Source: an uncultured Pelagibacteraceae bacterium (lineage in GTDB: Bacteria; Pseudomonadota; Alphaproteobacteria; Pelagibacterales; Pelagibacteraceae). From it: a DNA stretch of 64,000 bases. The stretch covers positions 1-64,000 of the forward strand of contig CACNTB010000004.1 in assembly GCA_902623305.1 (NCBI GenBank), read 5' to 3'. A program made the position numbers and the translations under genes. This document shows positions 702 to 60,049 of this stretch, in pieces; within the stretch, counting starts at the first letter, position 1; every line of letters begins with the position of its first letter. The notes beneath the pieces were generated by a model. It saw nothing but the letters and a program-made list of their open reading frames with translations. It ran no database searches and was not told the DNA's origin.

Positions 702-1148
702 TTATTTAATTTCAATAAGTTTCTTTTTTTTATGTTCTGGAATTATTCTTTCACAAGATATTGTTAAAAGACCATCTTTAAGTTCAGCACCATTAACTTT
801 TACATCATCAGCTATAGTGAATGATCTTGCAAATTGTCTTTGAGAAATACCTTTATGAATAATTTCTCCATTATCATCACTGTCCTCAGATTTATTAATT
901 TGTTTAGTTCTAACAGTTAATAAATTATCCTCGAACTCAACCTCAACGTCCTTTTTACTAAAACCAGCTAATGCTACTTCGATCGCATAATTGTCCTTAC
1001 CAGTCTTTCGGATGTTGTAAGGTGGGTAATTTGACTGCATTGTCAAATTTCCATTACCTAGCATATTTTCAAATTGGTCAAACATGTCGTCAAAACCAAT
1101 TGAAAAAGGTCTAAGTGAGTTAAATATAGATAGATCCTTACTTGTCAT
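702..1148 (-). CDS. Small heat shock protein, Hsp20/alpha-crystallin family (IbpA-like)
   Basis: FDDMFDQFENML, YPPYNIRKTGKDNYAIEVALAGFSKKDVEVEFEDNLLTV alpha-crystallin domain. Confidence 0.95.
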   Translation of the reverse strand: MTSKDLSIFNSLRPFSIGFDDMFDQFENMLGNGNLTMQSNYPPYNIRKTGKDNYAIEVALAGFSKKDVEVEFEDNLLTVRTKQINKSEDSDDNGEIIHKGISQRQFARSFTIADDVKVNGAELKDGLLTISCERIIPEHKKKKLIEIK

Positions 1149-1210
1149 AATATCCTCCTTTGTTAAGCAAGTTTATTTTTGCAAGCCCCATTAGGCGACT
1201 TACTAAACTT
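1149..1210 (-). promoter_or_regulatory. ROSE-type RNA thermometer in hsp20 5' UTR
   Basis: Minus-strand leader ends CUUGCUU-AACA-AAGGAGG-AUAUU-AUG: 7-position stem sequestering the SD with a central G-G opposition, the hallmark of ROSE hairpins; a second small stem UUAG/CUAA lies upstream. Confidence 0.65.
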
Positions 1211-1238
1211 ATATGGGGATTAATTTGTTTTTTTCAAG
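1211..1238 (-). promoter_or_regulatory. Sigma32 (RpoH)-type heat shock promoter of hsp20
   Basis: Minus strand CTTGAA-N15-CCCATAT, close to the sigma32 consensus. Confidence 0.7.
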
Positions 1239-1250
1239 ATTTAAAATGTA

Positions 1251-3327
1251 CTAAATTTTTTTAGAAATTTTTAATGCAAATGCATAGTCAATAGCTATTT
1301 CTTCTATTGCGCCATCTCTTCCAGATTTTCCACCATGACCAGCATTCATTTCGGTTTTTAAAAGAAGTAAATTATTGTCCGTTTTATAGTCTCTAAGTTT
1401 TGCTGTGAACTTTGCAGGTTCATCAAATAAAACTCTATTATCACTTAAACTTGTTGTAATAAAAACATGTGGATAATCCATTTTTTTAATATTGTTATAG
1501 GGTGCATATGAAAAAATATAATCAAAATGCTCTTTATTCTCTTTAGCATTTCCAAATTCATCAAATTCTCCCACAGTTAAAGGTAAAGAATGATCAAGAT
1601 TTGTTGTTAAAGAATCTACAAAGGGAACAGCCATAATAATTCCTAAAAATAATTCAGGAGATTGATTGACTACAGCTCCCATTAATAATCCTCCAGCTGA
1701 TCCACCCATTCCAATAATATTTCCTTTTGACGTATAATTCTTTTCGATCAAATATTTTGCTGCGTAGATATAATCTTCAAAAGTATTTTTTTTGTTAGTT
1801 AATTTTCCCTCTTTCCACCACTTCATACCTTTTTCCATACCACCTCTAATGTGAGCTGTAGCCCAAATTATATCTCTATTGATAAGACTTAGTCTTGTAG
1901 AAGAAAAACTTGGGGACATAGAATTTCCATAAGACCCATATCCATATAATAAAACATTTGCAGACCCATCAATTTTAGTTTTTTTTGTGTCTAGTAATTG
2001 TTAACGGAACCATTCTTCCATCATGAGATTTAAACTCAACTCTCTCAACAATATAGTCATCTTTATTATGACCAGAAGGAATTTCTTGCTCTTTCACAAG
2101 TTCTTTAGATTTTGTTGCTAAATTATATTTAAACACTCTAGAAGGAGTTTTGGGTGATGAGTATCCTAAATAAACTTCATCAGTATTTCTATCTTTTTGA
2201 GTTAAGCTTACTCCTGGAACATAAACAGATTCATCAGAAAAAATTAATTCTTCTTCTATATTTGTAGAAATATTTTTGACAAATAATTTATCTAGTGCAT
2301 CAGATGTTTCACCACGAATAATCCAATTTTTAAGGAATGTTAATCCACCAATTAAAACTTCATCTTTTGCTGAAATATATGTTTGCCAATTTTGATTTTC
2401 TAAATTAAAACAAATATCAATTTTAAAGTCTTCAGCATTTTTATTTGTATGATTATAAAATTTACCATCCCATGAATTAACAGAATACAGAACACCTCTT
2501 TCTCTTTTAATAATAAGTTTTGGAGATGGATTTAATTCATCTGATTTAAAGTAATATTGCTCTGAAGTATTATGGTCAGAAGTATTTATAAAAAAATATT
2601 TTTCATCTGAGCTTTTTCCAATTCCTACTGTAAAAGCCTCGCTTTTCTCCTCAAATATTAATTCATCTTTGCCCTCAAAATCACCTATTCTATGCCTGTA
2701 TATTGTTCTTGCTCTATGATTTTCATCAAGTTTAGAATAAAAAATATATTTATCATCCAGACTAAATGTTATTCCCCCTGATGTTTCTGCAATTTCTTTT
2801 GAAATTATTTTGTTTGTTTTTATATCTCTTAAATAAATTGTATAATATTCAGATCCCTTAAGATCTAAAGAGTATCCTAGATATTTGTCATTGTTACTTA
2901 CTTCTAAATCTCCAACTCCAAAATATTCAGTTTTAAGTTTTTCCTTTTCTTTATCTCCGTTCCATATTTCCTCAATATTTTCTGAACCAATTTTTTTTCT
3001 AAGTTTTATGGAATAATTTCCTTTTGATGTAGTTTTTGTCCAATACTCATAGGTGTGATCTTTATAGGGCAAAGATTCATCATCTAATTTAATTCTTCCT
3101 TTAATCTCATCAAATAATTTTTTTTGGATATCTTTTGTATCTTTTAAATGATGCTCTGAGTAGGCATTTTCATCTTCTAAATATTTTTTCACTTCAGGAT
3201 CTAACTTGCTTTTATCTCTGAGAACTTCCAAAATATTATCTTGATGAATCCAGCTGTAATTGTCTTCCCAATCAATATTGTGACAAGTTTTTATCTCTAG
3301 TTTTTTTTTAAGTTGTGGTACTTTCAT
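1251..3327 (-). pseudogene. ptrB: Oligopeptidase B / prolyl oligopeptidase family, split into two frames at an A8 tract
   Basis: N-terminal beta-propeller half (ORF 1975..3327) and catalytic half (1251..1919; GMGGSAGG) are collinear; removing one A from the tract at 1979..1986 joins ...TRHKK-TKIDGSANVLLYGYGSYGNSMSPSF... Confidence 0.75.
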
Positions 3328-58878: not shown

Positions 58879-59945
58879 TTTTTAGAAATTAATCTTTGTC
58901 TTAGATAATCAATAGGATAAGTTCGTCCATTTATATCACAGTGCCAAAAAGTCCATCCATTGCAACTTTCAGCTCCTAAAATAGTAGCCGCAACTTTGTG
59001 TATAGAACCCTCTGCTTGATTATGTTTTATACTACCATCAGCCATAATTCTGGCTGTTATTTTTTTCTTATTATCAAAAATATTAGTTCCAGGTTTAATT
59101 ATTCCAAGCTCAACTAATGAACCAAAAGGAATTCTTGGTTTTGATCTATTGTTTTTTAGTGTATCTAATAAATCATCTTCAATAGGCTTTGTAGCTTTTA
59201 TGCGCTGCTCAGCAGCTTTAAAATAATTTTTTTCTTGTTCTATTCCAAAATAATTTCTTCCTAATTTTTTTGCTACTGTAGCCGTTGTTCCTGATCCTAA
59301 AAAAGGATCTAGTATGAGGTCATTTTTATTAGATGTGGCTAGTAAAATTCTATGTAATAGTGCTTCTGGTTTTTGTGTAGAGTGAATTTTTTTTCCATCC
59401 TTTTTAAGTCTTTCAGAACCATTGCAAATTGGAAGATCCCAATTAGATCTCATTTGCAAATCATCATTTAAACATTTTAAAGATTGATAATTAAATGTAT
59501 ATTTTGATTTCTCACTTTTAGAAGCCCATATTAAAGTTTCATGAGCGTTAGTAAAACGTGTCCCTCTAAAGTTTGGCATTGGATTATTTTTATTCCAAAT
59601 AACATCGTTTAAAATCCAGAAACCTAAATTTTGGATTGCTGTGCCAACTCTAAAAATATTATGGTAGCTTCCTATAACCCAAATAGCTCCATCTTTTTTT
59701 AAAATTCTTTTACATTCACTAAGCCATTCATAAGTGAAGTCATCATATTTTTTAAAATTTTCAAATTGATCCCATTTATCATTTACCGCACTAACCTTTG
59801 ATCTATCTGGTCTAATTAATTCTCTTTTTAATTGTAAGTTGTAAGGAGGATCAGCAAAAATTAAATCAAAAGTTTCACGTGGAATTTTTTTTAATTCTTC
59901 GAGACTATTTCCATTAATAATTCTATTTTTGAAATCAGTTTTCAT
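58875..59945 (-). CDS. ccrM: CcrM-type adenine DNA methyltransferase (predicted GANTC specificity)
   Basis: IINGNSLEELKKIPRETFDLIFADPPYNLQL; LDPFLGSGTTA; C-terminal extension ARIMADGSIKHNQAEGSIHKVAATILGAESCNGWTFWHC typical of CcrM. Confidence 0.94.
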   Translation of the reverse strand: MKTDFKNRIINGNSLEELKKIPRETFDLIFADPPYNLQLKRELIRPDRSKVSAVNDKWDQFENFKKYDDFTYEWLSECKRILKKDGAIWVIGSYHNIFRVGTAIQNLGFWILNDVIWNKNNPMPNFRGTRFTNAHETLIWASKSEKSKYTFNYQSLKCLNDDLQMRSNWDLPICNGSERLKKDGKKIHSTQKPEALLHRILLATSNKNDLILDPFLGSGTTATVAKKLGRNYFGIEQEKNYFKAAEQRIKATKPIEDDLLDTLKNNRSKPRIPFGSLVELGIIKPGTNIFDNKKKITARIMADGSIKHNQAEGSIHKVAATILGAESCNGWTFWHCDINGRTYPIDYLRQRLISKN

Positions 59946-59957
59946 TTATAAAAATTA

Positions 59958-59986
59958 ATTAGACTCCAAATGGATTTTTCGGTCAA
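59958..59986 (-). promoter_or_regulatory. Candidate ccrM promoter with GANTC overlapping -10
   Basis: Minus strand TTGACC-N17-TCTAAT; GAGTC (GANTC) at 59962..59966 overlaps the -10. Confidence 0.45.
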
Positions 59987-60049
59987 CCTGAGATTGAAAA
60001 ATTTGAATTCGATTAGTGTTTTTAAATTAGAAGGTAACTAGATGTAGTG

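Follow-up and report, generated by a model that had tools for sequence, protein, structure and literature searches.

A conserved two-hairpin ROSE-like element, probably an RNA thermometer, in the hsp20 leader of SAR11 bacteria

Known ROSE elements are built of two to four hairpins, and a review ties them to small heat-shock genes (PMC4166951), a restriction to which rhlA is a later exception (PMC13104619). The ROSE-like leaders of Pseudomonas ibpA have two hairpins (PMC3669281) and measure 61 bp in P. aeruginosa (PMC13104619). There, temperature control of a reporter and of ribosome binding has been demonstrated and the second hairpin alone melts (PMC3669281, PMC13104619), and the short element works as a thermometer in vitro as well as when moved to a foreign host (PMC3669281). 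The leader of hsp20 in SAR11 bacteria resembles this system in its two hairpins, the second of which sets the Shine-Dalgarno sequence (SD) against U(U/C)GCU, in its predicted sigma32-dependent transcription, in the small heat-shock gene that follows and in its similar length. It differs in that its hairpin II is AU-richer and is devoid of the pair of flanking G-C clamps found in Pseudomonas, and in that SAR11 is an oligotrophic marine host from another proteobacterial class, for which we only infer thermoregulation. A two-hairpin element of this size is already proven in Pseudomonas ibpA and small size is not new; the claim of a novel, "minimised" thermometer, made in a preliminary description of this locus, has to be given up, as a second hairpin is present and the Pseudomonas element (61 bp) is of similar size.

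The window, that is, the whole 64-kb stretch of DNA analysed, comes from a member of the Pelagibacteraceae (SAR11), its nearest named records being Pelagibacteraceae single-cell genomes and Candidatus Pelagibacter ubique. All features of the locus lie on the minus strand. The hsp20 gene (702..1148) encodes an IbpA-type small heat-shock protein of 148 aa (PF00011 (HSP20), E 3.8e-17), for which IbpA is the top NCBIfam model at a score under the model cut-off, and a single copy was detected in the window's genome. A motif search identified a perfect sigma32-type promoter, CTTGAAA-N13-CCCCATAT, at 1211..1238; with none expected and none in 100 shuffles, it is the sole such site in the 64 kb and stands where the preliminary description placed its promoter. 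Related leaders carry TTGAA at -125..-75 in 144 of 151 cases, as against 13 in shuffles. With the transcription start placed about 7 nt past the -10 box, the predicted leader (1149..1204) is about 56 nt long. Its first feature, located by folding and covariation at 1181..1203, is hairpin I, GUAAGUCGCC-UAAU-GGGGCUUGC (GUAAGUC-G-CC / UAAU / GG-GGCUUGC, with a bulged G), which lies between promoter and anti-SD and is GC-richer than the SD hairpin. The anti-SD CUUGCUU, carrying the ROSE motif U(U/C)GCU and recognised by sequence and conservation, follows at 1165..1171, and AACA (1161..1164) separates it from the SD AAGGAGG (1154..1160), which by its pairing forms the 3' arm of hairpin II; the spacer AUAUU (1149..1153) then leads to the AUG (1146..1148). 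This order, CUUGCUU-AACA-AAGGAGG-AUAUU-AUG, agrees with the original reading of the sequence. Hairpin I was missed in that reading and belongs to the element. The GCAA assigned there to an alternative GCAA/UUGC fold is the 3' end of hairpin I plus linker, and we discard the fold because GCAA occurs in only 15 of 153 leaders. The arrangement CUUGCUU-N4-AAGGAGG has one exact site in the window, before hsp20, and one more weak site at up to three mismatches. Folding of the 64-nt segment is better than that of shuffled sequences, though modestly so (z -2.1, 6/200).

Two other features of the window may be recorded here. The prolyl-oligopeptidase (S9) gene at 1251..3327, on the minus strand, is present as two ORFs split at an A-run near 1980, while in relatives the frame is open throughout the piece compared; the split is either an assembly error or a recent frameshift. 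At 59942..60010, also on the minus strand, lies a bablM sRNA (RF01784; 69.6 bits, over the gathering score of 38).

The strong support for the element is comparative, not thermodynamic. Pooling hsp20 loci from the family, the genome collection and direct extraction gave 170 loci and 153 distinct leaders, and 57 diverse leaders were aligned by sequence only with MAFFT (alignment A1). The anti-SD U(U/C)GCU, in the form [ACT]CU[UC]GCU[UA], is found in 152 of the 153 distinct leaders, always ahead of GGAG, and its lone G, loss of which locks repression in known ROSE elements, is invariant in A1. Hairpin I shows compensatory changes in eight of its nine pairs, with 96.5% of cells paired across the 57 leaders; examples are GUAAG/CUUAC, GUUGG/CUAAC, UCGG/CCGA and GAAGAU/AUCUUC. 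The covariation score of the whole structure is 0.313, compared with 0.178 for shuffled alignments, and none of 500 shuffles reaches 0.313; sliding the partners by one to three columns destroys the signal. RNAalifold on A1 predicts hairpin I unaided and does not call hairpin II, which is conserved within SAR11 and yet shows almost no covariation, because the SD itself is fixed. The two-hairpin element is thus conserved across genera of the SAR11 family, and the conservation and covariation in orthologous leaders on which the preliminary description had staked its claim that a short hsp20 leader transcribed under sigma32 holds a ROSE-type element have come out in its favor. A three-hairpin variant was also seen: in the leader at one locus (L154, 243 bp), ahead of a second, diverged hsp20, an extra hairpin (GGUGAAAAUUCACC) stands between hairpin I and the SD hairpin.

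How the SD is paired in hairpin II can be written in two ways, with a 1x1 G-G opposition or with a bulged G. The former was the original proposal, of which the SD pairing and the lone G stand, whereas the bulged-G register fits more leaders. With the SD numbered A1A2G3G4A5G6G7, the bulged-G register consists of C-G6, U-A5, U-G4, the bulged G, C-G3 and U-A2. Its five core pairs are broken in 8 of 285 cells (97% paired), as against 21 of 285 (93%) for the 1x1 register, and it includes U-G to C-G changes that are exactly the degeneracy of U(U/C)GCU. Lineages that combine CUCGCUU with GGAGA fit the bulged-G register only (-3.0 versus +2.5 kcal/mol for 1x1), which excludes a 1x1 G-G opposition as the only register. 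In 41 leaders with CCUUGCU, the last G of GGAGG is always kept and pairs with the extra C. Leaders of rpoH, described below, that carry AUUGCUU replace the C-G6 pair of hsp20 with A-U6, a compensatory change that lends the bulged-G register independent support; the Rfam ROSE consensus is also written in bulged-G form. The sequences of the relatives favor the bulged-G register over the 1x1 form. For the window sequence itself, nearest-neighbour energies prefer 1x1 (-3.1 versus -0.6 for the bulged G), and therefore both registers may coexist. A G-G contact within the bulge is possible by likeness to the B. japonicum ROSE, whose NMR structure, as cited in PMC9450479, has a syn-anti G83-G94 contact at the corresponding place.

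In its architecture the element is ROSE-like throughout: it forms part of the leader ahead of a small heat-shock gene (PF00011; 170 related loci), its 3'-most hairpin pairs U(U/C)GCU with the SD, the G facing the SD is either left unpaired or engaged in a predicted G-G contact, and a 5' hairpin precedes the SD hairpin, within a range of two to four hairpins in all. With cmscan we obtained full-length matches, in register with SD and AUG, to ROSE_3 (RF02523; 22.2 bits, E 0.015 in 301 nt) and to ROSE (RF00435; 17.9 bits). Since the gathering scores are 43 and 45, respectively, the leader falls outside both families as Rfam delimits them, and the expected agreement with these models holds for extent and register but not for score. 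Several of twenty relatives score 17-28 bits with ROSE_3 (maximum 27.6) and one scores 22.8 with ROSE_2. Searching 58 genomes of the order with ROSE_3 at E<=0.001 gave no matches, a result that is not proof of absence as the controls also gave none. Such sub-threshold scores indicate that the SAR11 elements have been overlooked by the curated models. The SAR11 leaders share with ROSE_3 a hairpin I whose GCC/GGG top has the same bulged G, the GCU core of the anti-SD and an AUG in register, even though they score far under its gathering score. They share with RF00435, the type of Bradyrhizobium japonicum hspA, UU[G]CU opposite AGGA and the bulged G, but there the SD stem is longer and the hairpins are more numerous. 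The fourU element of Salmonella agsA likewise masks the SD of a small heat-shock gene with a short hairpin; we rejected membership in that class, as no four consecutive U face AGGA in the SAR11 leader, which carries the ROSE motif instead.

Taken together, we consider the SAR11 hsp20 leader probably to be a cis-acting, two-hairpin ROSE-like RNA thermometer. By analogy with the characterised elements, we infer that the SD is masked in the cell, that the masking helix melts and that heat induces translation. In the proposed mechanism, sigma32 would drive transcription of hsp20, and hairpin I would serve as a stable scaffold that stays folded on warming. The whole SD would be paired with U(U/C)GCU in hairpin II, with a single G either unpaired or in contact with another G, so that in the cool state this hairpin would keep the 30S subunit off the mRNA; warming would open its weak helix and HSP20 would be made. 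Nearest-neighbour calculations on the leader plus AUG give an unpaired fraction for AGGAGG of 0.17 at 5 C, 0.21 at 40 C and 0.27 at 50 C. This curve is shallow: the SD stays largely closed between 5 and 50 C, no threshold is predicted, and the result varies with the length of ORF included. Only four genes of the window passed the SD filter, too few to rank the masking of the hsp20 SD against that of other genes.

What the folding models set against the thermometer reading is that the predicted partner of the anti-SD shifts once the folded segment extends 20 or 36 nt into the ORF. With 20 nt of the ORF, the minimum free energy fold pairs the anti-SD CUUGCUU not with the SD but with AAGUAAG in hsp20 codons 2-4 (1137..1143, minus strand; seven complementary pairs, one of them G-U), and with 36 nt the balance of the two helices differs among lineages. 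The anti-SD might therefore have two mutually exclusive partners, the SD in hairpin II or the AAGUAAG of codons 2-4; the codon helix would loop out both SD and start codon, and the coding sequence would act as a second lock or as the partner in the open state. That the codon helix is the minimum free energy fold with 20 nt of ORF speaks for this version, as do the near-equal energies of the two helices at every temperature (e.g. -5.6 versus -5.2 kcal/mol at 20 C). So does the constraint on the codons themselves: ACA AGT AAG (1137..1145) shows no synonymous variation among 103 distinct ORFs, even though AGT accounts for 10% of Ser and AAG for 23% of Lys codons in the rest of hsp20, where the mean share of the top codon is 0.81 and a constancy of 97% is attained by only 6% of codons. 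Of 153 ORFs, 123 retain AAGTAAG. No such invariant run opens groEL, typA or coxA, these being small controls with partly unconserved N-termini. The pattern suggests that the first codons are under selection at the RNA level, and the anti-SD pairing is a candidate explanation. However, other causes can constrain early codons, many lineages (e.g. genus g4) fold without the codon helix when 36 nt of ORF are included, the N-termini differ in distant genera, and the energies of the two helices run parallel, so that temperature alone would not switch between them. On balance we regard a bistable leader of this kind as unlikely.

Less likely still, to our minds, is that the RNA is not a temperature sensor and the leader simply masks the SD to lower or buffer the translation of hsp20, or else is recognised by a protein, for example by the small heat-shock protein itself as an autogenous repressor, as with IbpA of E. 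coli. The shallow computed melting would suit such a reading, and the conserved shape of hairpin I could serve protein contact. Yet a simple mask would not need the specific ROSE core, of which U(U/C)GCU and the lone G are kept here, and the homologous short element of Pseudomonas functions as a thermometer in vitro and in a heterologous host (PMC3669281). The idea that the pairing arose by chance in an AT-rich leader could appeal to the single-sequence z of only -2.1, but has a negligible probability, being refuted by the covariation and conservation across genera of the family and by the unique exact match in the window.

In the window's genome, a covariance model built from A1 found only the hsp20 site (next match E 0.07, hence no further copy). 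Across 289 alphaproteobacterial genomes it returned 13 matches at E<=0.001, three of them in SAR11, and all 13 lie directly before hsp20 (10) or rpoH (3). Weaker matches precede rpoH in G328 and G196 (family f23), G212 (f39) and G265 (f92); f23 and f39 each contain an rpoH match at E<=0.001, and f92 is a separate family. The distribution is thinly sampled, the family and order around one rpoH-match genome comprising only three genomes. Of 66 regions upstream of rpoH, 7 carry the SD-masking ROSE pattern U[UC]GCU..AGGA..AUG, where 0.08 would be expected. The ROSE-like rpoH leaders lie on the minus strand in L180 (1501-1571), L182 (1501-1572) and L286 (2359-2434), and on the plus strand in L179 (1501-1563), L287 (1427-1500), L289 (1400-1470), L290 (1408-1491) and L291 (1401-1470). 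Those of L286, L287, L289 and L290 fold unaided into two hairpins, including an SD helix with a bulged G, their SD being AAGGAU and their anti-SD (A/G)UUGCUU. A sigma70-like TTGACT...TATAAT was seen by eye upstream of several rpoH leaders. Five rpoH loci gave no match to the Rfam ROSE models, and the A1 model had no match in the SAR11 rpoH leaders of the window's genome (cut by a contig edge) and of one relative. Our literature search, of incomplete coverage, found no ROSE element on rpoH in Alphaproteobacteria. We put forward, tentatively, a SAR11 ROSE element with two partners, its anti-SD alternating between SD and first hsp20 codons, together with ROSE-like control of rpoH in several alphaproteobacterial families. 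If true, the master regulator sigma32 would be under the same kind of RNA thermometer as SAR11 hsp20.

We report here a real, conserved ROSE-like element, missed by curated models, in a host group for which we found no prior report; judged by its likeness to characterised elements, it very probably acts as a ROSE-type RNA thermometer. A non-exhaustive literature search yielded no paper joining SAR11, heat shock and RNA thermometers, and a study of structured RNAs in Pelagibacter (PMC2704228) mentions neither ROSE elements nor heat shock nor hsp20. What goes beyond known ROSE elements are the invariant hsp20 codons 2-4 complementary to the anti-SD and the ROSE-like leaders before rpoH; a specialist would be surprised by the proposed dual-partner anti-SD and by the rpoH leaders. 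Given that curated ROSE models miss a whole family, thermometer surveys of marine Alphaproteobacteria undercount these elements. The rpoH leaders bear on how the heat-shock sigma factor is controlled outside gamma-proteobacteria. For SAR11 itself, the heat response becomes testable with a fragment of about 56 nt, and the element would extend RNA thermometers to cells that rank among the ocean's most abundant and have few regulators in their streamlined genomes.
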